DNA of 64,000 nt, taken from Ilumatobacter coccineus YM16-304. GTDB taxonomy: Bacteria; Actinomycetota; Acidimicrobiia; Acidimicrobiales; Ilumatobacteraceae. This document shows, piece by piece, positions 6,810 to 47,875 of this stretch. Positions within the stretch are counted from its first letter, which is position 1; every line of letters begins with the position of its first letter. The notes under the pieces were generated by a model. That model saw only the letters and a list, made by a program, of their open reading frames with translations, ran no database searches and had not been told where the DNA came from. The stretch lies in assembly GCF_000348785.1 (NCBI RefSeq), contig NC_020520.1:3348001-3412000 (forward strand). The letters are read 5' to 3'. Both the position numbers and the translations under genes were made by a program.

Positions 6810-6944
6810 GGCCAGGAGGTTAACGGTGGCGGTGCGTCGACGATCGTCGTTCAGATGATCGGAAACTTCGACGCACGGTGCCGATCGCCGCCACGAACGT
6901 TCAATTCAGAACAGGCGAACCATGGCGCGCCTAGTGTCATTCGC

Positions 6945-9900: not shown

Positions 9901-10982
9901 CGATCGGCCGAATCGGCGCAGGCGACACCGTCGAGGTGACGATCGCAGGTCGCGCCGGGGTACCCGACGACGAAGTCGCCGCCGTGGTCGCCAACATCAC
10001 CGCGATCAATCCCGAGTCGCGCGGCTACCTCACTGCGTTCCCGTGCGGTGATCGGCCGACTACCGCCTCGCTCAACTACTCGTACGCCGGCACCGTCGTC
10101 GGCAACGAGATCATCGCCAAGCTGAGCGACGACGGCTCGATCTGCATCTACTCCTCTGCAGACACCGACGTGACCGTCGACGCCGTCGGATACGTCCCCG
10201 ACGACAGCGCTGTGCGCCCGCTCGAACCCGCCCGATTCCTCGACACCCGCACCGATGACAGCGCGTCCACGATCGACGGCATCGGTCTCGGCCAAGGCAT
10301 GCTCGATCGCGACGAAGTTCGAATCGAGGTCGCCGGCCGCGGTGATGTTCCCAGTTCGAACGTCGCTGCGGTCGTCGTCAACATCACCGCGATCAATCCG
10401 CTGCAGCGGAGCCACATCCGCGCCTACCCGTGCGACGAAGAGGAGATCACCTCGGCGTTGAACTACTTACCCGGATCGGTCGCAGGCAACGAGATCATCA
10501 TCAAGAGCACCGACGGCGCCTTCTGTCTGACGTCGTTCGGTGACACACATCTGACCGCCGACGTCGTCGGCTACGTGGAGGACGATCCCGGGTTCGTCCC
10601 ACTCGTGCCGATCCGAATCGGCGAGACGCGCACTCGCGGTGGCGACGGCACGTTCGACGAGATCGCCTCCGGACGTGGCGTCATCGGCGCGGGCCATGTG
10701 TTCGAGATCCCTGTGCTCGGCAGGGCCGGCGTTCCCACTGACGGCGTCGACGCCGTGGTGGTCAACGTCACCGCCGTGCGCCCCGACGGACGCGGGTTCA
10801 TCACCGCCTATCCGTGCAGCCTGCGGCCCGTGGCGGCGTCACTCAACTTCCCGACTGCCGGCACGGTCGTCGGCAACGAGATCATCGCGAAGGTCGGCGA
10901 GCACGGGACGATCTGCCTCTACACCCAGACGGCCACCCACATCACCGCCGACCTCACGGGTTACACCACCAGCCCGACGTGA
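6945..10982 (+). CDS. Secreted repeat protein: about 14 DUF5650-like repeats plus three C-terminal modules
   Basis: A large secreted protein (1345 aa). The ATG at 6945 gives a signal peptide (basic MPARRF, hydrophobic core, cleavage near AAA). Residues of about 45-930 hold about 14 repeats of about 60 residues, each with L-x-NGNYVV, a W-DNG, DAGAVTWGDG, and NSLVGS...D-x-VG. They match my memory of the DUF5650 repeat and are likely to fold as propeller-like blades. Residues of about 955-1345 are three tandem modules of about 125 residues with an ARxLETRT start, VVNITAINP and a C-x-YT/S end, each with two cysteines. The open frame extends 544 codons upstream, but that part overlaps the Stealth gene. 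Likely cell-surface or matrix protein; ligand unknown. Confidence 0.85.
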   Translation: MPARRFISTLATASLVASGSVAISDGGVAAAPDDAAVLPFEIEAPPGSEEFGERVVVLSNGNYVVVDQGWDDGDVPNVGAVYLYDGLTNGLISRVSGSSPNDRVGRNFAYEVGTSDVVVLSGLWDGPGGANVGAATWIDGRAGLSGTVSAANSLIGARAGDLVGDNSRIVVLDNGNYVITTPDWDSDGVADAGAVTWGNGEDGVTGPVSSANSLVGSTTLDLRFSQVTGLADGDYVVASPHWDDGSAIDVGAATWGSGLVGATGEIGPSRSLVGTLSNSVVGHRYNGVVPLSNGHYLVRSPHWQSQPGVYAGAVTWSSGAGTTVGPVSAENSLVGSQEDFVGAPIGEQDTIVELTNGNYVVLSPYWDNGDIEDAGAVTWGSGTRGVTGVVSAENSSVGVSKNESRIPAIDEDDTIGLFVEPLSDGDYVVRRPLWDNGSKADAGAVTWGDGAAGTTGEVGPSNSLVGSTAGDRIGGFFDASASLANGDFVVASRNWDNGSVVDAGAVTWMDGDGGTVGAVSIANSLVGTSAGDHVGALVSTLSTGDYIAVSPSWRDGGNGEVGAATFVSGAGPYSGAVSASNSLIGSTPGDFDGGTYASPPDDPQLRRAVEVGDGNAVIALPEWDNGAASDAGAVVWVDRTIGTSGTVSAANGLVGSSADDRVGRGLVVLPNNNYLVISDRWDDGPVDDAGAVTWGDGTVGISGAVSATNSLIGSSPGDSVGAPGIHIDRQVRPLANGNYLVGTTGWDNGGVVDAGAVTWGDGATGIVGRVSESNSLVGSSANDRVGTISAQRFAALPNGDAVVASWNWDRDGIDDAGAVTWIDGSTGINGPVSESNSLLGSHAGDRLGIGAQDRDAIDAVGDLGFIAASTYWDDGRGAVTFGAAGQPLTGEVTAANSALGTAPGEILGLAWVAREPIDEWGDDFGQDGPTSAGSMIYRTSQGRVLGIQLRAVEVESTAPIRSFTPARVLETRTMPSPGTVDGVSDAIGRIGAGDTVEVTIAGRAGVPDDEVAAVVANITAINPESRGYLTAFPCGDRPTTASLNYSYAGTVVGNEIIAKLSDDGSICIYSSADTDVTVDAVGYVPDDSAVRPLEPARFLDTRTDDSASTIDGIGLGQGMLDRDEVRIEVAGRGDVPSSNVAAVVVNITAINPLQRSHIRAYPCDEEEITSALNYLPGSVAGNEIIIKSTDGAFCLTSFGDTHLTADVVGYVEDDPGFVPLVPIRIGETRTRGGDGTFDEIASGRGVIGAGHVFEIPVLGRAGVPTDGVDAVVVNVTAVRPDGRGFITAYPCSLRPVAASLNFPTAGTVVGNEIIAKVGEHGTICLYTQTATHITADLTGYTTSPT

Positions 10983-10988
10983 CGACTC

Positions 10989-11882
10989 TCAGATGATCGG
11001 AGGGCGGCCGAGTCTGGCGAGGTGCCAGACGGTCCGCCAGCGAATCGGATCGCGGCCGACATCGGCCTTCCAGCCCGACCGCCAGCCGGCGAGGTAGCGC
11101 TTGCGACTCTCACCTTTCGGCGCGCGAAGCATCCCGAGCACGAGCCAGGCCGCCACATGGATCATCGCGACCGGCCATGGCAACGTTCGGCGAGCGATCC
11201 AGACCCGGTTTCGTCCGGTGAGCTCCCAGCCGTGCGCGTGTCGTTCGATCGTCGTCTTCGGGTGGAACACCTTCACGTCGGCGAGGTACCGGATCTTCCA
11301 ACCCCGCTCGACCAGTCGCCACGAGAGCTCGAGTTCCTCGTGCCCGTAGAACAGATCGGTGAAGTAGCCGCCGACATCGTCGTACGCCTCGCGTCGGATG
11401 GCGCACGCTCCTCCGAGAAACAGCGCCACCTCACCGGACCGGTCGGCGTCTCGACCTCCGGGGCGGGGCACGTGACGACGACTCGTGTCTCCGTCTTCGT
11501 CGACTAGACGCAACGACACCGCTCCGAGCCGATCATCGGCGGAGAACTCTTCGACGATGCGTTCAGTCGCTCCCGGCGGAGCCACGGCATCGTCGTCGAG
11601 AAACGCCACCACGTCGCTGGCGGTCGCAGCGACACCGCGGTCGCGGCCTGCCGGTACCCCGACGTTGGCGGGCAACTCGATGACGTGGTCGACGTGGGTC
11701 GTGCTCGCAGCGGGGCGCCCGTCGGCGATCCCGTTCACGACGACGGTGACTTCTGCCGCATCGCCGCGCAGCGACTCGATCGCCTGCTCCACAGCAGTGG
11801 GGCGGTCCCCCATCGTCAACACAACCCAGTTGACCAGGGTTTCGACGCGTTGGGCCACCCCCACAAGGTAGCGGCGCAACAT
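10989..11882 (-). CDS. Family 2 glycosyltransferase (rhamnosyltransferase-like)
   Basis: About 297 residues. The N-terminus reads VNWVVLTMGDRPTAVEQAI, with AFLDDDAV as the DxD metal site, GGACAIRREAYDDVGGY, and YGHEELELSWRL as the catalytic-base region. Such enzymes often add rhamnose or related sugars. The ATG at 11882 is chosen: it leaves 67 bases to the divergent exporter gene, whereas the longest frame would run into it. A nearer GTG is possible. It ends 6 bases from the convergent repeat-protein gene, so the two may share a termination zone. Sugar specificity cannot be set from the sequence. Confidence 0.82.
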   Translation of the reverse strand: MLRRYLVGVAQRVETLVNWVVLTMGDRPTAVEQAIESLRGDAAEVTVVVNGIADGRPAASTTHVDHVIELPANVGVPAGRDRGVAATASDVVAFLDDDAVAPPGATERIVEEFSADDRLGAVSLRLVDEDGDTSRRHVPRPGGRDADRSGEVALFLGGACAIRREAYDDVGGYFTDLFYGHEELELSWRLVERGWKIRYLADVKVFHPKTTIERHAHGWELTGRNRVWIARRTLPWPVAMIHVAAWLVLGMLRAPKGESRKRYLAGWRSGWKADVGRDPIRWRTVWHLARLGRPPII

Positions 11883-11949: not shown

Positions 11950-12795
11950 ATGGCTGCAACCTCGCCAGTGGGCGTGCCCGAGCTGCGCGATGCCCACGAG
12001 TCCGACCGGCTCGGTCCGTACCTCCGAGACGTCATCCGTCGCCGGAGCTACATCTGGTACGTCGCCAAGCAAGAACTGCGGAGCCGCCAGGTGCTCAACG
12101 TGCTCGGCAACCTGTGGCACCTGCTCAACCCGTTGCTCAGCATCACGGTCTACTTCCTCATCTTCGGGCTCTTGTTGAAGACCACCAGGGGTGTCGACAA
12201 CTTCCTGATGTTCCTCACCATCGGACTCTTCGTCTTCCAGTTCACGCAGAAGGCGACCACCGACGGCGCGAAGTCGATCGTCAGCAACAAAGGTCTGTTG
12301 AAAGGGGTCAGGTTCCCGCGGGCGATCCTGCCGATCACCTCGACGGTCACCGAGCTCCTGTCGTCGCTGTCGACCTTCGCCATGATGTACGTGATCCTGC
12401 TCATCGGTGGCACCACGGCTCGATGGACGTGGATCCTGTTCCCCGTACTGGTCGGCGTCCAGTTCGTCTTCAACCTCGGGGCGGCGATGGTCGCTGCTCG
12501 CATGACCACCCACTTCCGTGACACGACGCAGCTGCTGCCGTTCTTCTTCCGACTTCTCCTGTATGCCTCCGGGGTCATCTACAACGTCGACGCCTACGTC
12601 GAGAACAACCCGACGGTCGCCCTGCTCTTCAAGCTGAACCCCATGTACTGCTTCTTGACCATCGCCCGCTGGACACTCCTCGGCGGTTCACTCGACGGAT
12701 CACTCGTCGTGTCGGCCCTTGCGTGGTCGATCCTCCTCTGTTCGCTCGGATTCATCTGGTTCCGAGCCGCCGAATCGAGCTATGCGCGTGACTGA
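11950..12795 (+). CDS. wzm: ABC-2 type polysaccharide exporter, membrane subunit
   Basis: A 281-residue ABC-2 permease with six hydrophobic segments, of the Wzm/TagG type that carries a finished, lipid-linked glycan across the membrane. The N-terminal cytoplasmic helix (YIWYVAKQELRSRQ) is typical, as is the motif LGNLWHLLNPLLSITVYFLI. The stop overlaps the start of the ATP-binding subunit, as is normal for this pair. Presence of Wzm/Wzt means that at least one glycan of this locus is completed on the inner face and exported by the ABC route. I found no Wzx flippase or Wzy polymerase in the window. Confidence 0.92.
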   Translation: MAATSPVGVPELRDAHESDRLGPYLRDVIRRRSYIWYVAKQELRSRQVLNVLGNLWHLLNPLLSITVYFLIFGLLLKTTRGVDNFLMFLTIGLFVFQFTQKATTDGAKSIVSNKGLLKGVRFPRAILPITSTVTELLSSLSTFAMMYVILLIGGTTARWTWILFPVLVGVQFVFNLGAAMVAARMTTHFRDTTQLLPFFFRLLLYASGVIYNVDAYVENNPTVALLFKLNPMYCFLTIARWTLLGGSLDGSLVVSALAWSILLCSLGFIWFRAAESSYARD

Positions 12796-13555
12796 GACGT
12801 CGGCGACCGCCCCAGCTCCTCACCAGATGAACGCTCCGATCAGCGTGAGCGTCGACTCGGCCGATGTGAAGTACCGCGTCTACGAGGAACGCAACTACTC
12901 GATGCGCGACATGGTGAGCAGCGGCTTCCGCCGTCGCCACTCCACGATCGTGCACGCCGTTCAGGATGTGTCGTTCGACGTGCACATCGGCGAGGCCGTC
13001 GGCATCGTCGGTTCGAATGGCTCGGGGAAGTCGACGTTGCTGCGCGCTGTCGCCGGTCTGCAGGCGCTCGAGTCCGGGTCGATCAAGATCCGCGGCGAAG
13101 CTCAGCTGCTCAGCGTGTCCGGTGCCCTCAAGCCGTCGCTGTCCGGGTACCGAAATGTGCTGCTCGGTGGACTCGCCATGGGGCTCGACAAGAGCGAGAT
13201 CGAGGCGCAGATGGACGACATCATCGAGTTCTCCGGCCTCGGCGAGGCGATGGGGAGGCCGATGAAGACCTACTCGTCCGGCATGCGGGCACGGCTCTCG
13301 TTCTCGATCGCGACGCTTCGCGTCCCCGACATCCTGTTGATCGACGAGGCGCTCGCCGTCGGCGACAAGGAGTTCCGCTCGAAGAGCTTGGAGCGCGTCA
13401 ACGAGATCCGTGACCAAGCGGGCACCATCCTGATGGTGACCCACAACCTCAACGAGATCCGCGACAGCTGCACGCGTGCGATCTGGCTGGAGAAGGGCGT
13501 CCTCATGGCCGACGGCGACGTCGCCGACGTCCTTGCACAGTACGAGAGCCGATAG
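12782..13555 (+). CDS. wzt: ABC polysaccharide exporter, ATP-binding subunit
   Basis: About 257 residues. Walker A is GSNGSGKST, the signature region is TYSSGMRARLSFSIATL, and Walker B is DILLIDEALAVGD, followed by the switch histidine in MVTHNL. This is the TagH/Wzt type without an extended C-terminal carbohydrate-binding domain, so substrate selection by a Wzt cap is not expected. The ATG at 12782 overlaps the permease gene by 14 bases; a GTG at 12788 and an ATG at 12829 are alternatives. The partner is the preceding permease. The LicD-like gene starts 4 bases after its stop, linking export and decoration in one transcript. Confidence 0.92.
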   Translation: MRVTETSATAPAPHQMNAPISVSVDSADVKYRVYEERNYSMRDMVSSGFRRRHSTIVHAVQDVSFDVHIGEAVGIVGSNGSGKSTLLRAVAGLQALESGSIKIRGEAQLLSVSGALKPSLSGYRNVLLGGLAMGLDKSEIEAQMDDIIEFSGLGEAMGRPMKTYSSGMRARLSFSIATLRVPDILLIDEALAVGDKEFRSKSLERVNEIRDQAGTILMVTHNLNEIRDSCTRAIWLEKGVLMADGDVADVLAQYESR

Positions 13556-13559
13556 CCGC

Positions 13560-14648
13560 GTGCTGTCGCTGCTCCGCGATCGGGTCCTCCGACTGATCGA
13601 TCGCTCATCGTTCGTTCGCACGCTGACAGTTCGCCTGCTCGCGCTCGGCGCCCGACGCTCGGGAGCCGTCGAGCCGGTCGTCGACGAGGCGGTAGAAGGC
13701 CGCGACCGTCGCCCCACGGCTCGCACGGCTCAGATGATCATGTGGGCTCGTCGCGTCACGCAGGAGTCATCCGACCTCCCGACACATTTCGATCCCGCCG
13801 AGCACTTGACCAGCGAGCATGCTCTCGATGCGGCCCGTCGGGCCGTCGAGCATCGGCTGGAGTCGCAGCCCGGCGACGATGTGGCGGCGCGACAACTGCT
13901 GCGTCTCGTACCCGACCGGCGGTTGGTCGACCTGGCTCGCGACGTCGAAGGCGACATCCAGACGCTGTTGCATCGGAAGGCGACGACCGCCAGCGCCAGC
14001 AAGGGCGGAATCGCACCCGAACTCCAACTCGAGATCACAGCAGAGTTGACCGAACGGTTGGCCGAGATCGACGTGCGCCCGTTCCTCATGTCGGGCACGC
14101 TGCTCGGCATCGTGCGAGATGGCGACTTCATGGCCCACGACTACGACATCGACCTCGGGCTCATGCCCGACACCGACCTGGCGACGATTCCGGACTTCGT
14201 CCGCAGAATGGGCTACGAGACCACCGTCGAGGGTGACCGGATCGTGGCACTCCACTCCTCAGGCGCGCGAACCGACCTCTTCCCGCACACGAGGCGAGAC
14301 GGCAAGTTCTGGCACGGTTCGCTCGTCCACGAATGGTGGAACACGCCGTTCGACCTCGCACCGATGGAGATGAAGGGCCATCGGTTGTTCACGCCTGACG
14401 ACCCGAAGCGTTACCTCGACGAGAACTATGGCGACTGGAGCCGACCCGTCGCCTTCTACGACATCAGCTTCGACACGCCGAATCGGGTCTACCGGCAGAA
14501 CGCCGACGCCCTCCTGCACCTCCACTCGCGTTGCGTCATCGCTCTTCGCACAAACGATCGATGGCTCCTCGAGTCAGCCGCGCGAGAGTTGCGCGACAAC
14601 TTCGGGATCGACGTGACCGACTTCCTGGCCGCGTCTCGCCTGCTCTGA
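13560..14648 (+). CDS. LicD-like phospho-substituent transferase (module 1)
   Basis: A 362-residue protein of the LicD/fukutin-like nucleotidyltransferase-fold group, which transfers phospho-headgroups from CDP/CMP-activated donors onto sugars. The active-site block at about residues 178-200 reads GTLLGIVRDG then HDYDIDLG, with the D-x-D intact. It is followed by EWWNTPFDL, an RYLDENYGDW segment and a C-terminal helical part. The first 150 residues are helical and not assigned. The GTG at 13560 is 4 bases past the Wzt stop. It is one of five such modules in this locus; the neighbouring phosphonate genes suggest phosphonate rather than phosphocholine donors, which is inference. Confidence 0.78.
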   Translation: MLSLLRDRVLRLIDRSSFVRTLTVRLLALGARRSGAVEPVVDEAVEGRDRRPTARTAQMIMWARRVTQESSDLPTHFDPAEHLTSEHALDAARRAVEHRLESQPGDDVAARQLLRLVPDRRLVDLARDVEGDIQTLLHRKATTASASKGGIAPELQLEITAELTERLAEIDVRPFLMSGTLLGIVRDGDFMAHDYDIDLGLMPDTDLATIPDFVRRMGYETTVEGDRIVALHSSGARTDLFPHTRRDGKFWHGSLVHEWWNTPFDLAPMEMKGHRLFTPDDPKRYLDENYGDWSRPVAFYDISFDTPNRVYRQNADALLHLHSRCVIALRTNDRWLLESAARELRDNFGIDVTDFLAASRLL

Positions 14649-14860: not shown

Positions 14861-17506
14861 ATGGAACAATCGCGACTGAGCGAAGACGCACCCCGATCCG
14901 ATCACGATCGCTCGCGCCCGCACGTGAGCGTGATCGTTCCCGTCTACAACGTTCAGGAGTACCTGGCCGACTGCCTCGACTCCCTGCTCGGCCAGACGCT
15001 CGACAGCCTGGAGATCATCGCTGTCGACGACGGTTCGACCGACGACTCGAGTCGCATACTCGCCGAGTATGCGAGCGCGCACCCCGACCGCATTCGCTCG
15101 TTCACCAAGCCGAATGGCGGGCTCAGCGACGCCCGCAACTTCGGAATTGGCCGTGCTCGCGGTGAGTACATCGGCTTCGTCGACAGCGATGACTGGGTCG
15201 ACGCCGAGATGTTCGAAGCCATGTACGAGCGGGCCATCGAAACCGACTCGGAAGCGGTGGTGTGCGGTGCTCGGCTGCACATGTACCAAGACGACGTCGA
15301 GGTCGAAGACGCCGCACGCAACATCGACCTCCGCGGGTCGATCTCCAACTTCGGCAACAGCGTCACGCAGAATCCGCACATCTTGTTCTCGAGCCATTCG
15401 TACGCCTGCACGAAGCTCTTCCATCGCCGACTCTTCGACGAGTGGGGATTCGAGTTCCCGATCGGGCAATGGTTCGAGGATTCGGCCCTGATCTACAACA
15501 TCATGTACGCGGCCAACCGGGTGAGCTGTCTGCAAGACAACTTCTACCACTACCGCTTCAACCGATCGGGAGCGATCACCACGACGCTGTCACCGAAGAT
15601 CTTCGACATCTTCAAGTCGTGCGACAGCATTCTCGACTTCTATCGAGACAAGAAGATCGGTCATCCGAGGATCGATCACGTGCTCGAACAGTTGGTGCGC
15701 ACCCACATCATCGGCCGCTACCAACTCTTCTTGGAGAACACCGACAAGGGCTACCAGCAGCCGAAACTGACATGGGCCGAGAAGCGCCTCTCGTGGGCCT
15801 TCGTTCGGCGAGCCTTCCAGTACCTCGACACCGAGTTTCCGGGCTGGAAGGCCCGCTACAAGTACAAGTCGGCGGGTGCAGGTGTCCCGGTCTGGTGGCG
15901 GGCACGCAAGAGCCTCCCATTGATGTTCGTCCTGATCTTCGTGCCGCAGGTCGGTCTGTCGTCGTTTCGCCGTTTGCTCCTCAAGGCGCGCAAGACGCAA
16001 CGCAAGGCCACCAAGCTGTTTGCGTCGCCCGCAACGAGAAAGCAACGAAAGGTCGCGGCGGGCAAAGAGGAAGCGAAGCTCGTCAAGAAGCGAAAGGGGC
16101 TGCAGAAGCACGGTTTCGAGGTGCTCGATCGCCTCGACGCCTCGTTCCAGAAGGCCGGCGTCTCCTACTTCGCCGACTTCGGAACGCTGCTCGGCTTCGT
16201 CCGCGATGGCGGCTTCATGCGGCACGATCTCGATCTCGACATCGGAGCATTCGCCGACGACGACGAGAAGCTCGATGTGTACGCAGCACTACTCGATGCA
16301 GGATTCGTTCACTATCGGACGTATCTGTTCGAGGAGCGCGTGGTCGAGTATTCGTTCCACAGCCTCGACGAGTACGGACAGAAGAGCGTCAAGTTCGACA
16401 TCAACTTCTACGAGAACGTCGACGGCAAGTCACGCTGCTGGTTGTTCCACTACCTCCCGGACGCGGGCCTGCCGTTGCGTGCCCGATTCGCGACGGAGAT
16501 GAACTACAGCCAGATCGTCGGCACCGAGATGCTCGAGGTGCAGGGCCACGAGGTGCCGGTCCCGAAGGACTACGAACGATTGCTGACCGAGAAGTACGGC
16601 CCGTCGTGGAGAACTCCCGACCCGTCGTGGGTGTACTGGGATTCGCCGGCCGCCACTCCCCTCGAGCCGCTCGGTCGCTACGTCACCCACTACCAGATGC
16701 CTGCGCACCGGATTCCGGACCTCCAAGCCGAGCAACTCAAGGTGCTCGAGGCCTTCGAACACGTGTGCAAGGAGCATGGCTTCCGCTTCTACCTCGCCGA
16801 AGGCACCTTGCTCGGAGCGGTGCGGCATCAGGGCTACATCCCGTGGGACGACGACATCGACGTGTCGATGCCACGTGATGACTACGAGCGACTGCTCGCA
16901 CTGCCATCCGATGCGTGGCCGACCGGGTATGGCATGTGGAACCACGTGACCGACCCGAACTATCACCTGCCGTTCTCCAAGGTGGTCGCCCGTGCGCACA
17001 ACGGGTTCCGGAACACGTTCCCCCCGACCGTGGAGCACCAGTTCTCCGGGCCGAGAATGGACATCTTCCCGCTCGATCGCGTCGCCCACGCGCACAGCCC
17101 CGAGCAGGACGCTGTCGCCAAGCAGATTCGCGTGCTCCGCAATGCCATGCTCGTCAAGGCGGGCTACCCGGGCAAGAAGAAGACCGCAGCGATGCCGGCA
17201 GGACTCGAGTTCATCCCGATGACCGTGTTCCAGGACTGGATCCGGTCGCTTGCGACACTGAGCAACGACGACCCGGAAGCCACGTACCTCGTCAACTGGT
17301 CGAGTTCGTACAGCCACCTCAAGCAGACCTTCGCCGAGGACTGGTACGGCGAACCGTCGATGGTGCAGTTCGAAGGCAAGCCGCGTCCGTGTCCTCAGAA
17401 GTCCGAGCGCATCCTCACCACGATCTACGGCGACTACATGGAGCTCCCGCCCGAGGATGAGCGGCAGAACGCTTCTCACTACATGATCTGCGACAAGTGG
17501 GCGTAG
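14861..17506 (+). CDS. Trifunctional GT2 / LicD-like / LicD fusion
   Basis: An 881-residue fusion. Residues of about 20-260 are a GT2 domain (HVSVIVPVYNVQEYL, DDGSTDDS, GFVDSDDW). A helical, lysine-rich linker follows to about 420. At about 439-465 sits a LicD-like site (FGTLLGFVRDGG, DLDLDIG). At about 645-672 a canonical LicD site appears (EGTLLGAVRHQGYIP, DDDIDVSMPRDDYERL). All three D-x-D sites look intact. The ATG at 14861 fits the start of the GT2 fold; a longer frame from 14747 adds unstructured residues. It probably adds a sugar and one or two phospho-headgroups. The 212 bases before it hold no gene I can support. Confidence 0.85.
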   Translation: MEQSRLSEDAPRSDHDRSRPHVSVIVPVYNVQEYLADCLDSLLGQTLDSLEIIAVDDGSTDDSSRILAEYASAHPDRIRSFTKPNGGLSDARNFGIGRARGEYIGFVDSDDWVDAEMFEAMYERAIETDSEAVVCGARLHMYQDDVEVEDAARNIDLRGSISNFGNSVTQNPHILFSSHSYACTKLFHRRLFDEWGFEFPIGQWFEDSALIYNIMYAANRVSCLQDNFYHYRFNRSGAITTTLSPKIFDIFKSCDSILDFYRDKKIGHPRIDHVLEQLVRTHIIGRYQLFLENTDKGYQQPKLTWAEKRLSWAFVRRAFQYLDTEFPGWKARYKYKSAGAGVPVWWRARKSLPLMFVLIFVPQVGLSSFRRLLLKARKTQRKATKLFASPATRKQRKVAAGKEEAKLVKKRKGLQKHGFEVLDRLDASFQKAGVSYFADFGTLLGFVRDGGFMRHDLDLDIGAFADDDEKLDVYAALLDAGFVHYRTYLFEERVVEYSFHSLDEYGQKSVKFDINFYENVDGKSRCWLFHYLPDAGLPLRARFATEMNYSQIVGTEMLEVQGHEVPVPKDYERLLTEKYGPSWRTPDPSWVYWDSPAATPLEPLGRYVTHYQMPAHRIPDLQAEQLKVLEAFEHVCKEHGFRFYLAEGTLLGAVRHQGYIPWDDDIDVSMPRDDYERLLALPSDAWPTGYGMWNHVTDPNYHLPFSKVVARAHNGFRNTFPPTVEHQFSGPRMDIFPLDRVAHAHSPEQDAVAKQIRVLRNAMLVKAGYPGKKKTAAMPAGLEFIPMTVFQDWIRSLATLSNDDPEATYLVNWSSSYSHLKQTFAEDWYGEPSMVQFEGKPRPCPQKSERILTTIYGDYMELPPEDERQNASHYMICDKWA

Positions 17507-17549: not shown

Positions 17550-18245
17550 TCAGCGGGCTCTGATGATCTGATTCGCCGTCTCGAGATCGCTCTCGAAGTC
17601 GACCTCGATGCAGAACGCCTCCGACACATCGGCGGCGAGAACACTGCGTCCCATCTGGTGAATCATCATCTCGACACCCCGTTCGAAGTAGTCGTTCGGG
17701 TCGCACTCCCGCAGGCTCTCGATGAGCGCGTGTTTGTCCGAGGCACTCACGAAGTTCACCCCGACCGCCTCGCCCAGGCCGTCGACGACGGTCTTCGACA
17801 ATTCGGTGATGTGGCCGTCGTCGTTCGTGCGGTACTTCACCTCCTCGTCGCCCACCTCCGCTCGGTTCACGGCGACGAAGGTCGTCTCTGCGTCGAGGTG
17901 TGGGTCGAGCAACGCCATGAGGGTCTCGTCGAAGACGACGTCTCCGTTCATCCACAGCACCGGGTCGTCGCCGGTCGCTTCGAGACCACGCAAGAGACTC
18001 TTGCTCGTGTTCGTCTGATCGAAGCGCTGGTTGTAGACGTACGACGCTTCGGGAAACGCCTCCATGATGAGGTCTTTCTTGAATCCGACGACGATCGTCG
18101 GCCGCCACACCGTCGAGTGTCCACCGAGGACAGCGAGCTGCTGTTCGAGAATCGATCGCCCGGAAGCGAGTCGTGTCAGCGGCTTCGGTTCGGGACGCCC
18201 GAGACGGGAACCCATTCCTGCGGCCAAGATCACGACATGCACCAC
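17550..18245 (-). CDS. LicC-like nucleotidyltransferase (candidate CTP:phosphonate cytidylyltransferase)
   Basis: About 231 residues, MobA/LicC-like. It starts with VVILAAGMGSRLGRPEPKPL, the glycine-rich loop and lysine of sugar- and choline-phosphate nucleotidyltransferases. It then has LWMNGDVVFDE as the metal site and a C-terminal IEVDFESDLETANQII that matches the end of phosphocholine cytidylyltransferases. The GTG at 18245 (or 18242) is the only start that keeps this fold; the longer frame is a shadow. It is divergent from the PEP mutase gene with 102 bases between. Given the neighbours, the likely job is CTP activation of hydroxyethylphosphonate or phosphonoacetaldehyde-derived groups for LicD. 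Phosphocholine or a sugar phosphate cannot be excluded. Confidence 0.75.
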   Translation of the reverse strand: MVHVVILAAGMGSRLGRPEPKPLTRLASGRSILEQQLAVLGGHSTVWRPTIVVGFKKDLIMEAFPEASYVYNQRFDQTNTSKSLLRGLEATGDDPVLWMNGDVVFDETLMALLDPHLDAETTFVAVNRAEVGDEEVKYRTNDDGHITELSKTVVDGLGEAVGVNFVSASDKHALIESLRECDPNDYFERGVEMMIHQMGRSVLAADVSEAFCIEVDFESDLETANQIIRAR

Positions 18246-18347
18246 GACAGGGTAACCACACGCCGAGTGCGAGTCGGCTTCGGCTCGGACGACGAACGCC
18301 CCCAGGACCGCTAGCCTTCCAGGGTCGATTTCCAACAAAGGATTGCA

Positions 18348-19658
18348 ATGCCAGAACGCCCCACCGTATACGTCGGAATGAGCGCAGACCTCATCCACCC
18401 CGGTCACATCAACGTGCTCGAACAGGCTGCTCAGCACGGCAGCGTGACCGTCGGGCTGTTGACGGATTCGGCGGTCGCGTCGTACAAGCGGCTCCCCCAC
18501 ATGACCTACGACCAACGGCGCGTCGTGGTCGAGAACCTCAAGACCGTCGATCGGGTCGTCCCGCAGGAAACCCTCGACTACGTGCCGAACCTCGAGAGCT
18601 TGCGTCCCGACATCGTCGTGCACGGCGACGACTGGCAGACCGGCGTGCAGCGGGCGACGCGCCAGCGTGTCATCGACGCACTCGCCCAGTGGGGCGGCAA
18701 GCTCGTCGAGGTCCCCTACACCGAGGGCATCTCGTCGACGCAGCTCAACGCGTCGGTCAAGCAGATCGGCACCACCCCGAGCGTTCGACTCTCCCGACTG
18801 CGCCGGTTGATCGACAGCAAAGACATCGTACGCATCATGGAAGCCCACTCCGGGCTCTCCGGGCTCGTCGTCGAGAACACCAAGGCGGAGCGAGATGGGC
18901 GCACCGTCGAGTTCGACGGCATGTGGTCGTCGTCGCTCACCGACTCGACCTCGCGCGGCAAGCCCGACATCGAGGCGGTCGACATCTCGTCGCGCCTCCA
19001 GACGATCAACGAGATCTTCGAAGTCACCACCAAGCCGCTCATCTTCGATGGCGACACCGGTGGCAAGCCCGAGCACTTCTCGTTCACCGTCCGCTCGCTC
19101 GAGCGACTCGGTGTGTCTGCCGTCATCATCGAAGACAAAGAGGGCCTCAAGCGCAACTCGCTCTTCGGCAACGACGTCGCCCAGACGCAGTCGAGCATCG
19201 CCGACTTCTCGGAGCGGTTGCGCATCGGCAAGCTGGCGCAGATCACCGAAGACTTCATGGTGATCGCCCGCATCGAATCGTTGATCCTCGAAGCCGGGAT
19301 GGCTGACGCCGTCGAGCGGGCCGAGGCCTACATCGACGCCGGCGCCGACGCGATCATGATCCACAGCCGCCAGAAGAGCCCCGACGAGATCTTCGAGTTC
19401 TGCGACCATGCAGCGAAGTTCTCCAAGTCGGTGCCGATCGTGGCCGTGCCGACGAGTTACCACCAGGTGACCGAGCAAGAGCTCGCCGATCGCGGCGTCA
19501 ACGTCGTGATCTACGCGAACCACATGCTCCGTTCGGCGTACCCGCAGATGAACAAGGTGGCGACCACCGTGCTCGAGAACAGCCGCGCGCTCGAGGCCGA
19601 CCCGTACCTCTCCAGCATCAACGAGGTACTCACCATCATTCCGGAAAACCACTCGTGA
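18348..19658 (+). CDS. pepM: Phosphoenolpyruvate mutase fused to a cytidylyltransferase-like domain
   Basis: PEP mutase turns PEP into phosphonopyruvate, the entry step of nearly all phosphonate biosynthesis. Residues of about 6-140 form an HxGH nucleotidyltransferase domain ([13 protein letters not shown], with an SS-Q signature near 129). Residues of about 150-430 form the PepM barrel. The diagnostic EDK-x5-NS motif is complete at residues 262-271 ([10 protein letters not shown]), which separates true PEP mutases from isocitrate-lyase relatives. The gene overlaps the next one as GTGA. The same N-terminal fusion is known in several phosphonate clusters and implies nucleotide activation of the product. 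Confidence 0.95.
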
Positions 19659-21163
19659 CCAAGCTGGGTGCGTTCGTTCGCGAGAACGAGCGGCCCGGCC
19701 GGCGCGTCGCGGAGCTCACGTTCGACGCCGTCGTCCGGCCTCGAGTCGCGGCGGGAGTGCTGTTGCCGCGTCTCGAAGCCCGGGCCCGTGCGGCCGGGGC
19801 GTCGGAGGCGCTGCTGGCCCGGGCGGCGCAGCTGACCGAGACGCTGGGCGTCCGCTCGTCGATCGCGACCTACCGCCTGTTGGCCGCTGTCGCCTCCGGG
19901 AACAAGTCGGCGATGACGCCGTTGCTCAACAAGTTCCAACCCGACATCCCCGACCAGCTGATGTGGGATGCGCTCGAACTCGGTGGCTACGACGTGGAGC
20001 AAGTTCGACACGACGACGCTGCCGATCTCGTCGCCTTCTTCGAGCCCGAGATCCGCCGAGGATTCGTCAACGACGGCTTCTCGCAGGTCTTCGAATGGTT
20101 GCTGACCAATCAGCGCGTGCCGAGCGAGTCACCGGCACTGCGGCCCCTGCTCGAGGCGCTGGTGACCAGCGCGGTCGAGCGACGCGAGCAGACAGAGGCA
20201 GAGAATCAACTGTTCAGCGACGCGACGCTGCGCGCCGTCGCCGCCGATCTGTTCGCTCAGGAAGGCCCACCATCGTGCTTCCTGTCGGGAGCGTCGTTGC
20301 TCGCCGCCGCCCACCCCGACGTGGAGCGCGCTCGCTTCGGCAACATCGAGTTCTCCACCTTCGGCGGAGTCGATGGCCTCGTCGCCGGCCTTCCGTCGGC
20401 GTTCACCCTCGTCAGCCGTCGCGGCGACCACGTCGTGGTCCGGCACACACCGACCGATGCGCTCGCCACGGTGGTGTGCTGCCGGGTCGACGGTGGCAGG
20501 TTGTCGCACGGTGACGGCCGCTACACCCGCTGGTACACGCCGTTCGAGGTGGCAGCACACGACTTCGGCATCGGGACGTTTCCGGGCCCGAGCGACACCG
20601 ACCGATATCTCGACGAGCGGTTCGGTCAGTGGCGGACGGCGCCGTTCTTCTACGACGCGGTGCTCGATGCCCCGAACACGACGATCGACCGATCGCTCGA
20701 CGGACTCCTATACGTGTACTCGAAGATGCGCGACACGTTCGCGACCGGCCGTCGGCACTACGCGGACGAGTGGTCGGCGATCATGCGCGACCGGTTCGGC
20801 ATCGAGTACTCCAACTTCGTTCCGCGAGGTGTGCCGAGGAAAGTGCTCGCCACGCCACTCACCGAGCGAGAAGTCGATGGACGTCCTATTCATCTCGTCG
20901 TCGCAGCGTTCGACGCCGTCGACGCCCAGTTCATCACGTGGCTCGACGAGCAGACGAGCGATGGTGTATTCGTCGTTGCGGGTGTCGTCGGGCATCGGCT
21001 CGACGGTGACGCGAACGAGCGACTCGCACTCGCCAATTCACTCGCGTCCGTCGATCACGCCACACTCATCGAGACGCCCGACGATCTCGCCGAACCGATC
21101 CCAGGATTCGCAGTCGCGACGACCACGGTGCACGCCTCCATCGAGATGCCGGTGAAACGATGA
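19655..21163 (+). CDS. Degenerate LicD-like protein (active-site residues lost)
   Basis: A 502-residue relative of the next gene. It keeps the LicD-like frame: [12 protein letters not shown] near residue 210, [12 protein letters not shown], then [19 protein letters not shown]. Where functional members read D-x-D-x-D it reads [11 protein letters not shown], with no acidic pair, so catalysis is doubtful. An N-terminal helical region (1-200) and a C-terminal segment (about 410-502) also match the layout of the downstream protein. The GTG at 19655 overlaps pepM, and the stop overlaps the next start as ATGA. The simplest reading is a non-catalytic partner of the intact paralogue; decay toward a pseudogene is less likely because the frame is fully open. 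Confidence 0.65.
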
Positions 21164-22689
21164 GCACGAACCCGATCACCGTCGTCACCCGATCGCTGCG
21201 CTCCCCCGCCGCTCGGCTCGCGCAACTCGACGTGCCGGAGCCGCTCTCGTCGCACGTGTCGAGCGTCGAGTCGAGACATGGAGTCGAGAGCGTCGAAGCG
21301 TACGTACGGTTCTTCGAGCAGCTTCTCGACCGCGCTCCCCTTCCGACCTATGCCGAGGTCGACATCGTTGCGCTCCTCGAATCCGACGAGCAGCGTGACG
21401 CGCTCGCTGCGTTGATCAAGCGAGCGATCCCGTCAGCTGACTCGTTCGATGATCTCGAGACCATGAACGCGATGCTTTTCCGGCTCGCTGGTCTCGGCTG
21501 CGACGATGCCGCCGTCGTCGAGTTCGTACACGCCGGGATGCAGCACACGCTCAACGAGCGGACCGGCACCTTCCAGAGCCGCGAAAAACACTTCAACTAC
21601 CACGATGCGCGCGACGCGCTGCTCGGCTGCAAGCGGATCTTCGACGCTGCGGGAAAGCGCTTCTTCCTCGATCGAGGAACGCTGCTCGGGTGTGTTCGCG
21701 AAGGCGGCTTCATCGCGAGTGACTACGACATCGACGTCGGGATCTTCGCCGACGAGATCACGCTCGACGAGGTGAAAACACTCTTCGAGGGCACCGAGTT
21801 CGAGTTGACGCAGGACTTCGAGTTCAAGGTCGGCGTCGCCAGTCCGACCGGCGTGCAGATCGACTTCTTCCTGACCACCCGCGAACGCGGCTACTTCCTG
21901 TCGAAGGGTTTCCGAAGCATCCACAATTGGTACTTCACGCCCTTCGAGCTGATGGAGTACCCGTTCTTGGGCGAGCGCTTCCTCATCCCCGCCACCTACG
22001 AGAAGCACCTCGACGAGAACTACGGCAACTGGCGCGACCCGGCGATCTTCTACGACCTGTCGTACAACGAGCCGTGCGTCGCCTACGGACGAGGACCCGA
22101 GGCGATATCGTACCTGTCGAAGCGGCTCGCACGTGCGCTGCGCCGTGGTTGGCGTTACTACAGCGCGGCGGCGGCCAACGCCCTGGCCCGCTCGTTCGAT
22201 CTCGACGTGACCGATCGTCTGCCGGTCGGGGTCGCGCCCACCGTCGCACCGATCGACGAGCCTGCGTGGGCACCACGCCCGATCATCGTCGTCGACGAGT
22301 TCGACTCGTATGGTCCTCGCCAGCGTCGTGTCATCGAGTCGGCCCTGAGCCTGACCCCCGATGTGCGACTCGCCGTGATCGGGTCCGACATGAACGACCG
22401 GCTGACGGTTGCTGGTGCGATCGACCGGGTCACCTCCGCGTCGGGCGCCCCGGTCGCGAGCAATCAGCGACTCGACGTCGATGCGCTCCTTGCCGACGGG
22501 CCACAGGCGATCGTGCTTGCTCGTCATCTCGACACCATGTTGTCGTCGACCGATGTCGGCGCACTGCTCGCCGCTGGATGCGACGTGGCCTTCTTCGACG
22601 AGTCGACGGTCGCGCTCGGCATCGTCGACGGGCGTATCGTCGCCAGAAGTGGCGACGTCATCGACGAGCCGAACATCTCAGCGCGCTGA
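21160..22689 (+). CDS. LicD-like phospho-substituent transferase with extra C-terminal domain
   Basis: A 509-residue protein. The LicD-like site is intact at about residues 172-194 (RGTLLGCVREGGFI, DYDIDVG), followed by NWYFTPFELMEYPF and a KHLDENYGNWRDP segment. The first 150 residues are helical. The last 130 residues begin RPIIVVDEFDSYGPRQRR and form an alpha/beta region I do not recognise. It overlaps the degenerate paralogue upstream as ATGA and is followed 38 bases later by the phosphonopyruvate decarboxylase gene, so it is inside the phosphonate operon. It is the best candidate for transferring an activated phosphonate to the glycan. Confidence 0.75.
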   Translation: MSTNPITVVTRSLRSPAARLAQLDVPEPLSSHVSSVESRHGVESVEAYVRFFEQLLDRAPLPTYAEVDIVALLESDEQRDALAALIKRAIPSADSFDDLETMNAMLFRLAGLGCDDAAVVEFVHAGMQHTLNERTGTFQSREKHFNYHDARDALLGCKRIFDAAGKRFFLDRGTLLGCVREGGFIASDYDIDVGIFADEITLDEVKTLFEGTEFELTQDFEFKVGVASPTGVQIDFFLTTRERGYFLSKGFRSIHNWYFTPFELMEYPFLGERFLIPATYEKHLDENYGNWRDPAIFYDLSYNEPCVAYGRGPEAISYLSKRLARALRRGWRYYSAAAANALARSFDLDVTDRLPVGVAPTVAPIDEPAWAPRPIIVVDEFDSYGPRQRRVIESALSLTPDVRLAVIGSDMNDRLTVAGAIDRVTSASGAPVASNQRLDVDALLADGPQAIVLARHLDTMLSSTDVGALLAAGCDVAFFDESTVALGIVDGRIVARSGDVIDEPNISAR

Positions 22690-22727
22690 GACGACCGACG
22701 AAAACACCACCACCACGGAGAACGAAC

Positions 22728-23849
22728 ATGATCAACCCGCGCAACGTCGTCGAGCACCTCAGGGGTCTCGGAACTTCACTGTTCGTCGGCGTGCCCGACA
22801 GCCTGCTGAAGCCGTTCGGTCAGTACGTGATGGCCGAGTTGCCGCGAAGCAGCCACATCATCACCTCGAACGAGGGCGCCTCGGTGGCTGTTGCTCTCGG
22901 TCACTACATGCGCACGAAAAATCCGGCGTTGGTGTACCTCCAGAACTCGGGTATCGGCAACACGGTCAACCCGCTGCTGTCGCTGGCTGATCGCGCCGTC
23001 TACGGCATTCCGATGATCCTCATGGTGGGCTGGCGCGGACAGCCGGGTGTGAAGGACGAACCGCAGCACGTCACGCAGGGTCGGGTCATGACAGCCATGC
23101 TCGATGCGATGGAGCTTCCCTATGCGGTGGTTCCCCACGACGAGGCCGGGGCTCTTGCTGCGTTCACCACCGCCCACGAGACGGCGATCGCCGAACAGTC
23201 GCCGTATGTGCTCCTCGTCGAGAAGGACACGTTCGAGCTCTACAGCGGCACGAAGGGCAACGACGCCACGCCCGACCTCCCCTCTCGCGAGGAGGCCGTT
23301 GCTGCGCTGCTCGACGTCGTTGCCGACGATGCACTCATCGTGTCGACCACCGGCATGCTCAGCCGCGAACTCTTCGAGTTGCGCGAGAAGAGCGGTGCCG
23401 ACGGAGCGTCCGACTTCCTGACCGTCGGAGGCATGGGCCACGCCAGTGCCATCGCTCTCGGGGTGGCGGCTGCCGAACCCGACCGGGAGGTGTGGTGCTT
23501 CGATGGCGACGGTGCCATGTTGATGCACACGGGAACGATGGCGACCATCGGCGACCACGGCACGCCGAACCTGCGCCATGCGCTGTTCAACAACGGAGTG
23601 CACGACAGCGTCGGCGGCCAGCCGACGTCGATCAACGTCGTCGACATCCCGGCGGTCGCCCTGGCGATGAACTACCGCTCTGCGCAGACTGCGTCGTCGC
23701 TCGCCGACCTTCCGGCCATCGCTTCGACCATGAGCGCCGCCGGTGGACCCTCGCTGGTCGAACTACTCGTCCGTCCTGGCAGCCGTCCGGATCTCGGGCG
23801 GCCGACTCGCACGCCTCGCGAGTCACGCGATCGCTTCATGGGGGCCTGA
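22728..23849 (+). CDS. ppd: Phosphonopyruvate decarboxylase
   Basis: A 373-residue thiamine-diphosphate enzyme that turns phosphonopyruvate into phosphonoacetaldehyde, pulling the unfavourable PEP mutase step forward. The N-terminal half has GVPDSLLKPF, SNEGASVAVALGHYM (with the catalytic Glu) and YLQNSGIGNTVNPL, all typical of this family. The C-terminal half has the TPP motif starting at WCFDGDGAMLMH and ending in FNNGVHDSVGGQPT. The ATG at 22728 has GGAG 8 bases upstream, which decides the start; the much longer frame is a shadow of the LicD-like gene. The following dehydrogenase starts 2 bases after its stop. Confidence 0.95.
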   Translation: MINPRNVVEHLRGLGTSLFVGVPDSLLKPFGQYVMAELPRSSHIITSNEGASVAVALGHYMRTKNPALVYLQNSGIGNTVNPLLSLADRAVYGIPMILMVGWRGQPGVKDEPQHVTQGRVMTAMLDAMELPYAVVPHDEAGALAAFTTAHETAIAEQSPYVLLVEKDTFELYSGTKGNDATPDLPSREEAVAALLDVVADDALIVSTTGMLSRELFELREKSGADGASDFLTVGGMGHASAIALGVAAAEPDREVWCFDGDGAMLMHTGTMATIGDHGTPNLRHALFNNGVHDSVGGQPTSINVVDIPAVALAMNYRSAQTASSLADLPAIASTMSAAGGPSLVELLVRPGSRPDLGRPTRTPRESRDRFMGA

Positions 23850-23851
23850 GC

Positions 23852-25018
23852 GTGGCAGACGTCCCGCCCCCGAGCCGCCATCACTCCGGCGAGCACGCGT
23901 TGGCCCGGCTCGCCGACGAGTTGATCGACGCGGGGACCGTACGTGTCCTGCTCGTCACCGGGCGCCGTTCGTTCACCGAGTCGGGCGCCGAGTCTCAGGT
24001 CGCTCGGCTGGCCGAGCACGCCGACGTCCGCCGGTGGAGTGACGTCTCCCCCAACACCGATTCGGTCGAACTGCTCACCGGGCTCGAGATCGTCGAGGAG
24101 TTCCAGCCCGACTACATCCTCGGTGTCGGCGGCGGCAGCGTCATGGACATGGCGAAGCTGCTGTGCGCATATCCGTCGAATCTCGCTCACGATGCGCTCC
24201 TCGAGCGCATCGACGCCGGAAGCCCGCTCGGTGAGCGGACAGTCGGATTGGGCCTCGCTCCGACCACCAGCGGTTCCGGGAGCGAAGCGACGCACTTCGC
24301 CGTTGTCTACATCGGCGACGCGAAGTACTCCGTTGCCGGCCCCGTGCTGCGAGCAGACACCGTCGCTCTCGATCCGACGTTCACCACGAGCGGTAGCGCT
24401 CACCAGCGGGCCACGTCGGGCATGGACGCCGTCTGTCAGGCGATCGAGAGTCGATGGGCCTCGGGCGCCACCCGTCGCAGCCGTCGCTACGCCGACTTCG
24501 CGATGGAGCTCCTCCTCCCGTCGATCCGCCCGTTCGTCGCCGGTGATGACGCTCACGCGGCAGCCATGCAGCTCGGCAGCCACCTCGCGGGACGAGCGAT
24601 CGACATCTCGAAGACGACCGCTGCACATGCGCTGTCGTACGCCATCACCAAGCGGTACGGGGTCGACCACGGAAACGCTGCGGCGCTCACGCTGGGTCAC
24701 TTCATCGAGGACCACGTGACGGTTGACGGCTCAAGACTTCAAGATTCCGTGTCGATGCAAGACCATGGCGAATCGTTGCAACGGATCACTGCGCTGCTCG
24801 GCGCCCCCGATGGAGCCGGAGCTCGCGCTGCGTTCATCGAACTCCTCGATGACCTCGGGTTGCCGTTCAACCTCTCGATGGTCGGCGATGTCGATGACGC
24901 CGACCTCGCCGACATGGCCGCATCGGTCAACGTTCAGCGCCTCGGGAACAACCCGGTGGTGTACGACACCGATGGCCTCGTCGACATCTTGCAGCGCGCG
25001 GTTCGCGCTCACCACTGA
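23852..25018 (+). CDS. Iron-type alcohol dehydrogenase, predicted phosphonoacetaldehyde reductase
   Basis: A 388-residue group III alcohol dehydrogenase. It has GVGGGSVMDMAKL for NAD(P) binding and TTSGSGSEATHFAV, close to the phosphonoacetaldehyde reductases that make 2-hydroxyethylphosphonate. Metal ligands would be Asp near 191 and His near 258 and 272 (AHALSY, VDHGNAA). The usual second ligand His is Gln here (GMDAVCQAIES). No 2-aminoethylphosphonate transaminase is in the window, so reduction rather than amination is the likely fate of the aldehyde. The GTG at 23852 sits right after the decarboxylase stop. The gene ends the phosphonate set. Confidence 0.85.
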   Translation: MADVPPPSRHHSGEHALARLADELIDAGTVRVLLVTGRRSFTESGAESQVARLAEHADVRRWSDVSPNTDSVELLTGLEIVEEFQPDYILGVGGGSVMDMAKLLCAYPSNLAHDALLERIDAGSPLGERTVGLGLAPTTSGSGSEATHFAVVYIGDAKYSVAGPVLRADTVALDPTFTTSGSAHQRATSGMDAVCQAIESRWASGATRRSRRYADFAMELLLPSIRPFVAGDDAHAAAMQLGSHLAGRAIDISKTTAAHALSYAITKRYGVDHGNAAALTLGHFIEDHVTVDGSRLQDSVSMQDHGESLQRITALLGAPDGAGARAAFIELLDDLGLPFNLSMVGDVDDADLADMAASVNVQRLGNNPVVYDTDGLVDILQRAVRAHH

Positions 25019-42292: not shown

Positions 42293-42981
42293 GTTGACTT
42301 CCTTTCTGCGAGCAACCGCTCGACTGCGGCGAGATCGGCGGCGCTGTCGATGTCGACCGATGACGGCTCGCACATCACGTACGCGCCGATCGACGCTGTG
42401 ACGAAGCCGCCGTTCTCGAGAAACCAGTCGCCGTCGAACACGTAGATCGCTCCATTCGGACGGTGAATCGGCTCGAGCTGCTGGCGATTCGTGAAGCACT
42501 CCCGGGCAGTGGAGATCGGGACGAAACGCCCGTCGACCACCTCGCCCCACTTCCGGACGCTCCGGTCGGCTTCGCACACCGACATCACCAGGTCGACGTC
42601 GGACGCCCGGTACTGGTCGACGGCGGCGCAGATGTCGCTCGCCGCCCGCAGCGGCGAGGTCGCCTGAAGGAGTACGACGGTGCAGGGTCGACCGATCTGG
42701 ACGATCGCGTGGCGGACTACTGCGTCCATCGGTGTGTCGTCGCCGCAGAGGTCGGCTGGTCGCTCGATCAACTCGACCGACGGCGAGACCGGTGCCCCCA
42801 ACACCGAGTCGATGTCGGTGGTGACGACCACGGTGCCGATTCCGGCGTCGAGTGCCGTATGGAGCGTGTGCTCGTACAGCGGACGACCAGCGAGCAGCGC
42901 GGTGTTCTTCCCGGGCAGGCCTTTCGACCCGGCGCGCAGCGGGACGAGGGCGACCAACGGATGGCAGCGAGCCGCGGTCAC
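42289..42981 (-). CDS. neuA: CMP-N-acylneuraminate cytidylyltransferase
   Basis: A 230-residue cytidylyltransferase that activates the sialic acid as the CMP-sugar. The N-terminal nucleotide site is VALVPLRAGSKGLPGKN; further on are VVVTTDIDSV, LLQATSPLRAASDI and PNGAIYVFDGDWF. The GTG at 42981 overlaps the stop of the acyltransferase gene as GTGA and is the only start that keeps the fold intact. The stop overlaps neuB. Within the operon it provides the donor for the two sialyltransferase candidates. Confidence 0.93.
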   Translation of the reverse strand: MTAARCHPLVALVPLRAGSKGLPGKNTALLAGRPLYEHTLHTALDAGIGTVVVTTDIDSVLGAPVSPSVELIERPADLCGDDTPMDAVVRHAIVQIGRPCTVVLLQATSPLRAASDICAAVDQYRASDVDLVMSVCEADRSVRKWGEVVDGRFVPISTARECFTNRQQLEPIHRPNGAIYVFDGDWFLENGGFVTASIGAYVMCEPSSVDIDSAADLAAVERLLAERKST

Positions 42982-47037: not shown

Positions 47038-47062
47038 GTCCGTGGTGTCCTTTCGGTGGTGG

Positions 47063-47866: not shown

Positions 47867-47875
47867 CTGTTTGTG

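Follow-up and report, generated by a model that had tools for sequence, protein, structure and literature searches.

A predicted 2-hydroxyethylphosphonate operon containing LicD-type genes in Ilumatobacter coccineus YM16-304

The genome of Ilumatobacter coccineus YM16-304 (one contig, 4,830,181 bases) contains genes for phosphonate synthesis together with genes of the LicD type, at 13.5-25.0 kb of the 64,000-nucleotide stretch that we analysed (genome positions 3348001-3412000, hereafter the window; coordinates below are those of the window unless stated). Which phosphonate would such a locus make, how would it be activated and onto what would it be transferred? The answer we favour, with a probability of about 0.72, is that a five-gene operon makes 2-hydroxyethylphosphonate (HEP), which is a precursor of the antibiotic fosfomycin, that a cytidylyltransferase (CyTase) domain fused to the first enzyme gives its cytidine monophosphate ester (CMP-HEP), and that LicD-type proteins would transfer HEP from this ester to a glycan exported by a Wzm/Wzt transporter, the whole forming a phosphonoglycan system. 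We computed genes, domains, motifs, gene order, conservation and the lack of matches for competing branches; the substrates, the acceptor and the export are predictions drawn from them. Gene models came from a codon-usage gene caller and lists of open reading frames, and families were assigned with the Pfam and NCBIfam models and their cut-offs.

The operon occupies positions 18348-25018 of the plus strand. Its first gene (18348-19658) encodes a protein of 436 residues, whose C-terminal part (about residues 150-436) is a phosphoenolpyruvate (PEP) mutase, PepM: it scores 410.6 bits with the equivalog model TIGR02320 (cut-off 319.55) and 192.9 bits with PF13714, and carries the ten-residue motif EDKx5NS at residues 262-271. 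Two LicD-like genes follow (19655-21163 and 21160-22689), then a gene for phosphonopyruvate decarboxylase (PPD; 22728-23849), with 440 bits for the equivalog model TIGR03297 (cut-off 312.5), and lastly one for an iron-containing alcohol dehydrogenase (Fe-ADH; 23852-25018; PF00465/PF25137), a clear member of PF00465 (109.5 bits, cut-off 31.3) and a predicted phosphonoacetaldehyde reductase. Stop and start codons overlap by 4 nucleotides at the first two joints, and gaps of 38 and 2 nucleotides separate the genes at the last two. These gene assignments and the grouping of most of the genes in one operon had been proposed by a first-pass annotation made from the sequence alone, and they hold, as does its statement that a 2-aminoethylphosphonate (AEP) transaminase is lacking: none exceeds the TIGR03301 cut-off of 360.8 bits in the whole genome, where the best match (150 bits) lies 2.5 Mb away. 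The metal ligands D192, H259 and H273 of the Fe-ADH are kept in all 81 aligned rows. The mutase, the decarboxylase and the Fe-dependent reductase would thus lead from PEP through phosphonopyruvate and phosphonoacetaldehyde to HEP, and this predicted route, which the first-pass annotation had also drawn, is well supported in the window.

The same annotation had missed the N-terminal domain of the PepM protein (about residues 1-140). Residues 12-132 match the CTP_transf_like family PF01467 with 52.8 bits (cut-off 21), and the HxGH and GISST motifs of this family are present. The best match of the domain in the PDB is 5x3d (230 bits), listed there under the molecule name phosphoenolpyruvate phosphomutase and which we take to be the CyTase domain of Fom1; the runner-up, an ethanolamine-phosphate cytidylyltransferase, scores 63 bits. 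When fusions were aligned, H17, H20, K47, R57, S129 and S130 of the first domain and E262, D263, K264, N270 and S271 of the second were kept in 87 of 87. Compared with the fusion of a fosfomycin-type cluster (locus L031), the window protein is 72.6% identical in the CyTase part and 73.7% in the PepM part. According to Rice et al. 2019 (PMC6697681), the N-terminal CyTase domain of that protein generates CMP-HEP. Because the window's domain is of the Fom1 type, the gene predicted to form the carbon-phosphorus bond would also carry the HEP-activating domain, which would convert HEP and cytidine triphosphate to CMP-HEP as Fom1 does. On this sequence comparison, HEP activation most likely sits in the fused domain and not in the LicC-like gene nearby, which is discussed below.

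How constant is this arrangement? In a survey of 395 Acidimicrobiia genomes, that of the window included, the CyTase-PepM fusion was found in seven, and five more matched with the PepM-like part alone (L010-L014), three of these five showing EDKx5NS. PPD and Fe-ADH follow the fusion on the same strand in all six other fusion genomes. A wider scan of genome contigs with CyTase-domain patterns confirmed at least 584 relatives; the analysis went on with the best 80, so that the tallies over 80 loci are valid for close Fom1-type fusions only. These best 80 fall in 17 named phyla (one row has no phylum). PPD lies on the fusion's strand in 79 of them, downstream in 78 and upstream in L077, and it starts at most 60 bases from the fusion in 75 of the 79 (the exceptions are L077, L090, L093 and L099). 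Fe-ADH lies on the same strand in 75 of the 80, always downstream; it was not detected in five, and among these the contig ends early in L026 (before PPD) and L028. In L071 a partial Fe-ADH stands at the contig end (E 8e-11). Set beside the 80 relatives, the window is unusual in having two LicD-like genes between the fusion and PPD. It should be kept in mind that the gene caller sometimes picks the wrong strand, as it did for L015 4989-7502 and in parts of L029. At its N-terminus the fusion of L018 (1590-3791) has what look like about 300 additional residues with no Pfam match, which may be due to a miscalled start codon. A survey of 295 Bacteroidia genomes offered no contrast, since at E 1e-60 PepM was found only in the genome on which the survey was centred.

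We also asked whether related loci take the HEP or the AEP branch. Queries of the PhnW type (phmmer, E 1e-10) matched in none of the 86 loci L015-L100. They did match just upstream of two diverged fusions, L111 and L113, which belong to one family of Actinomycetota, have no Fe-ADH match and reach only about 132 bits with the CyTase profile, versus 247-263 bits for eight close fusions. In L111 (7952-12314) an Aminotran_5 gene and a PF12804 gene adjoin the fusion, an arrangement like that of AEP clusters with PntC. An unfused locus, L110, has no Fe-ADH match and a weak transaminase match. Four of the eight close fusions (L108, L109, L115 and L116) are evidently on the same contigs as L033, L026, L027 and L022; L106, L107 and L112 all have Fe-ADH, and L114 stands at a contig end. 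Twenty-seven genomes (about 115 Mb) were searched with TIGR03301 and PF04991; they were picked by hand for named isolates and long contigs, after the LicD results were known, from 28 choices of which L095 is not among the genomes searched. An AEP transaminase above the cut-off occurs in three of them (G400, G415 and G417), whose cassette loci gave no PhnW-type match. Judged on these gene contents, a close Fom1-type fusion with Fe-ADH is the predicted HEP version of the cassette.

The question of transfer was approached through the LicD family (PF04991, cut-off 22.6 bits). Searched at E 1e-3, the whole 4.83 Mb genome gave two PF04991 matches only, at 0.9 and 2.0 kb from the fusion. The 27 hand-picked genomes gave 21 matches in 16 genomes, and 14 of the 21 lie within 10 kb of the fusion: 12 were placed at 5.4 kb or less by coordinates and motif, and two are the window's own. 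Five matches are elsewhere, and two in G395 are in range by position, yet showed no LicD motif, and do not enter the 14. Of the best 80 cassette loci 29 have a LicD-like gene; 40 of the 80 extend 9 kb or more in both directions, and among these 40 the number is 21. We then considered the gene following Fe-ADH on the same strand in 59 loci, a set restricted to genes of 150 to 1000 residues and to loci with PPD and ADH matches, and including L016, L018, L019 and L020. This fourth gene matches Glyphos_transf in 16, LicD in 15 (likewise 15 with our own LicD profile), Sulfotransfer_3 in five and CDP-OH_P_transf in three. Glyphos_transf, LicD and CDP-OH_P_transf enzymes use CDP- or CMP-linked donors; together they account for at most 34 of the 59, an upper bound because the counts are per family and double matches are possible.

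Around the window's cassette there are four LicD-type proteins. Upstream on the plus strand, 14861-17506 (ATG at 14861, other starts being possible) encodes a GT2 glycosyltransferase fused to two LicD-type domains, with 153.8 bits for PF04991 and 122.3 bits for PF00535 (scanned from 14924). The protein of 21160-22689 is above the PF04991 cut-off (27.7 bits), that of 13560-14648 just below it (21.0 bits), and that of 19655-21163 has no Pfam match, so the last two are classed as LicD-like only. The motif GTLLG..R..DxDxD is intact four times, in the 13560 protein (GTLLGIVR..DYDID), in both LicD domains of the GT2 fusion and in the 21160 protein (GTLLGCVR..DYDID). Here the first-pass annotation, right about the presence of LicD-like proteins, has to be corrected, for one of the two inside the operon has a degenerate motif. 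In the 19655 protein a segment of 14 residues replaces GTLLG.R..DxDxD and the catalytic aspartates are lost. It is 27% identical to the 21160 protein over 198 residues and 31% to the 13560 protein over 133, and these two are 37.6% identical to each other over 186. The structural model of the 21160 protein has ten-residue means of 79-98 for its predicted local distance difference test (pLDDT) at residues 151-350, and its top Foldseek match is FKRP (E 1.9e-7), in structures solved with CMP and with CDP-ribitol; the model points to an FKRP-type fold. The 19655 model is of low confidence (mean pLDDT 53.6); its top match is also FKRP (E 4.6e-3), and a second look with VIA-align placed LnuA (Z 13.2) slightly above FKRP (up to Z 11.8). 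This protein is probably a pseudo-transferase of the LicD/FKRP fold and would be a partner of the 21160 protein. One or both LicD domains of the GT2 fusion, together with the 21160 protein, are the most likely transferases, and they would move the HEP phosphonyl group from CMP-HEP onto glycan hydroxyls.

The C-terminal regions of the 21160 (about residues 375-509) and 19655 (about 400-494) proteins have low-confidence alpha/beta models and no family match. The idea that they are vestigial cytidylyltransferases was rejected: hhalign against 87 CyTase domains gave E values of 0.27-0.7, and reversed controls 0.51-0.77.

The predicted export genes stand just upstream, a Wzm-type permease of the ATP-binding cassette (ABC) transporter class (11968-12795, plus strand; PF01061) and a Wzt-type ABC transporter ATPase (12827-13555, plus strand; PF00005), followed by the plus-strand LicD-like gene at 13560. 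The top NCBIfam models for the Wzt are teichoic acid and galactan exporters, every one below its cut-off, and the Wzm reaches 72.3 bits with a galactan export permease model, also below cut-off. A genome of another genus of the same family (G002) has cassette and export homologues in one 20-kb stretch, with identities of 80% for the fusion, 63% for PPD, 56% for ADH, 55% for Wzm, 64.8% for Wzt, 31% over 882 residues for the GT2-LicD-LicD protein and 56% for the glycosyltransferase of 10989-11882; FkbM methyltransferases are also common to both. That stretch gave no match for the LicC-like gene or for the 13560, 19655 and 21160 genes, and this gene content suggests that the GT2-LicD-LicD protein is the older putative HEP transferase and that 13560, 19655 and 21160 are additions. 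Since the cassette is conserved, no AEP transaminase exceeds the cut-off, the only two significant PF04991 matches of the genome are local and Wzm/Wzt with GT2-LicD-LicD also occur in another genus, it is plausible that LicD-type enzymes act on an exported glycan and so give a phosphonoglycan, either on the surface or released. Taken as a whole, the first-pass proposal is partly supported and its outline holds.

Several observations weigh against the phosphonoglycan proposal. On the side of HEP formation, the Fe-ADH reaches only 129.1 bits with TIGR03405, the sole phosphonate-linked NCBIfam model that it matches (cut-off 423.7), and the fourth position of its metal ligands is Gln in 50 of the 81 aligned rows, the window's among them, and His in 31. 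Loci L024 and L099 continue for about 1.0 and 0.5 kb beyond PPD without a convincing Fe-ADH match, and a CyTase-PepM fusion by itself is no proof of HEP, because the diverged fusions L111 and L113 sit in AEP-type clusters. Concerning transfer, 51 of the best 80 loci have no LicD-like gene in the available DNA (19 of the 40 that extend 9 kb or more in both directions), the 19655 protein is degenerate, and the 21160 protein has no relative in the 394 other Acidimicrobiia genomes at E 1e-8. Finally, one genome (G338, locus L016) has the cassette without a LicD-like or Wzm/Wzt match within 20 kb.

This last case speaks for the alternative that survives best, in which the HEP cassette works as described but delivers to a lipid, to a glycan linked to protein or to a polymer of the cell wall instead of to a Wzm/Wzt-exported glycan. 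CDP-OH_P_transf, a family known mainly for lipid synthesis, occupies the fourth-gene slot in three of 59 loci, and two genes of this family lie close to the cassette of L062. Against this, both the window and G002 have Wzm/Wzt and GT2-LicD-LicD in the cassette locus, and that of the window lies inside a long glycan region; we regard another acceptor as unlikely, although it deserves consideration.

A second alternative concerns the LicC-like gene, whose product, for instance CDP-choline or another CDP-alcohol, would serve the LicD proteins while the HEP cassette feeds something else. This gene (17550-18245, minus strand, GTG start assumed) is divergent from the fusion gene and encodes a nucleotidyltransferase with 58.7 bits for PF12804 (cut-off 27). 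Its single sequence finds only GlmU-type entries in the PDB (best E 0.0014); a profile made of it and two relatives finds first PntC (6pd1, E 1.5e-12) and then LicC (1jyk, E 1.7e-10), so the LicC-like label of the first-pass annotation is fair. These nearest solved relatives favour the alternative, as does a 56% identical relative beside Wzm/Wzt-like genes in G256, a genome that gave no fusion match at E 1e-20. L030 has a gene of 51.7% identity that, as in the window, points away from the fusion. However, the window genome has no match to Choline_kinase (PF01633), the 20-kb region of G256 has no match to the LicD profile, LicC-like relatives occur in only 3 of 86 cassette loci (one weak, L073, 6.9e-8) as opposed to LicD-like genes in 29 of 80, and two LicD-like genes sit inside the HEP operon with 4-nucleotide overlaps. 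Such a division of labour is quite improbable. The first-pass annotation had instead assigned CMP-HEP formation to the LicC-like enzyme, which is probably wrong: the fusion has a Fom1-type CyTase with all the checked motif residues, and the LicC-like gene is divergent, was not found in the G002 stretch and has its 56% relative in the fusion-negative G256. We thus rejected it as the main HEP activator; its probable substrate is another phospho- or phosphono-alcohol, activated in addition to HEP.

A fosfomycin-like or other diffusible phosphonate would be suggested by the likeness to L031, the cluster of Streptomyces viridochromogenes NRRL 3413, which has an epoxidase gene (1zz6, 382.6 bits) and a B12-radical SAM gene, and whose fusion, PPD and Fe-ADH are about 73%, 54.4% and 50.7% identical to those of the window. 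Queries that recovered their own genes in the L031 genome gave no Fom3 match in the window genome (E 1e-5) and no convincing epoxidase HppE (best E 0.058), and the neighbourhood is one of glycan biosynthesis and export; on these grounds a fosfomycin-like product was rejected, and the wider class of diffusible products is very improbable. That the product is AEP, as in characterised PntC clusters, is scarcely credible: a PntC-type gene is present and L111 and L113 show that fusions can go with an AEP-transaminase-type gene, but the best transaminase match is far below cut-off and remote, and the operon itself contains Fe-ADH.

Other features of the window and genome were recorded. Adjoining the glycan genes, 5313-10982 encodes a protein of 1889 residues in which DUF5650 repeats form 14 stretches; the cassette locus of G002 encodes a homologue of the N-terminal part (34.5% over 513 columns). 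Near the phosphonate region, 38840-43736 of the minus strand holds genes for a PF07388 alpha-2,8-polysialyltransferase family protein, a UDP-GlcNAc 2-epimerase, NeuB, a PF02348 cytidylyltransferase and a hexapeptide transferase, a set that looks like a nonulosonic-acid island. The AT skew of 46001-48000 is -0.298, strong compared with the rest of the window, and a phage-integrase gene lies near it (48959-50131). The second PF13714 match of the genome (genome positions 1341237-1341932, 220 bits), where the PepM model is silent at E 1e-60, is probably, as a guess, a methylisocitrate-lyase relative.

What would this locus mean for phosphonate biology? Rice et al. 2019 (PMC6697681) describe as enigmatic the phosphonyl-tailoring steps that come after carbon-phosphorus bond formation, and they report PF01467-Ppm fusions as 23.6% of Ppm proteins, together with LicD-like neighbours and cytidylyl activation in phosphonate clusters; in their view the enrichment could be no more than a reflection of surface glycans and lipids. 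With a predicted complete CMP-HEP route and LicD-type genes in one operon, in a finished actinobacterial genome, the transfer step can be put directly to experiment. Four elements are apparently new with respect to the open-access literature: that close Fom1-type fusions come with a three-gene HEP cassette which hardly varies, that the slot after Fe-ADH takes different transferases, that in the window LicD-like genes lie inside the operon with one copy degenerate, and that the LicC-like gene and the HEP step are held to be separate. The proposal, if true, would also explain why fosfomycin biosynthesis goes via a CMP ester. The L031 fusion falls inside a clade of 16 fusions (13 labelled Actinomycetota, 3 from the window's family; support 100), beside L030 (97/82), although a constraint holding the other 15 apart from it was not rejected at 5% (p of the approximately unbiased test, p-AU, 0.091). 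Since the L031 fusion has its place among the actinobacterial members of the module's tree, fosfomycin biosynthesis may plausibly have inherited its CMP step from a surface-decoration cassette. A broader idea, in which the cassette would be a widespread CMP-HEP donor module serving whichever CDP/CMP-type transferase is present, be it of the LicD, CDP-glycerol or CDP-alcohol type, surface HEP would be common and largely unrecorded, and the fosfomycin detour would be a relic, we hold to be an even bet.

Among the closest known systems is the Fom1/Fom2/FomC part of the Streptomyces fosfomycin pathway, whose CyTase-PepM fusion, PPD and Fe-ADH are ordered relative to one another as in the window; the window differs by its two LicD-like genes between the fusion and PPD and by the adjacent glycan export genes, and its genome by giving neither a Fom3 match nor a convincing epoxidase match. 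HEP phosphonoglycans were reportedly described by Yu et al. in 2014 from Glycomyces and Stackebrandtia. The loci of Glycomyces paridis (L029) and Candidatus Stackebrandtia faecavium (L025) carry the cassette with fusions 73.6-75.2% identical to that of the window, and L029 has LicD-like matches 2.8-4.9 kb downstream on the opposite strand; these are not the species studied, the transferase set differs, and the LicD-like genes of the window are inside its operon. With the Pnt phosphonyl tailoring of Rice et al. 2019 (PMC6697681), the window shares cytidylyl activation of the phosphonate, as predicted here, and LicD-like phosphotransferases nearby, whereas the PF12804 PntC characterised there is AEP-specific, and the window would follow the HEP branch with a Fom1-type domain and a PntC-like gene as an extra. 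Finally, the LicD/FKRP family (PF04991) has in common with the window proteins the GTLLG..R..DxDxD motif and an FKRP-like fold, but the donor predicted for the window is CMP-HEP and not CDP-choline or CDP-ribitol, and one copy is without the aspartates.

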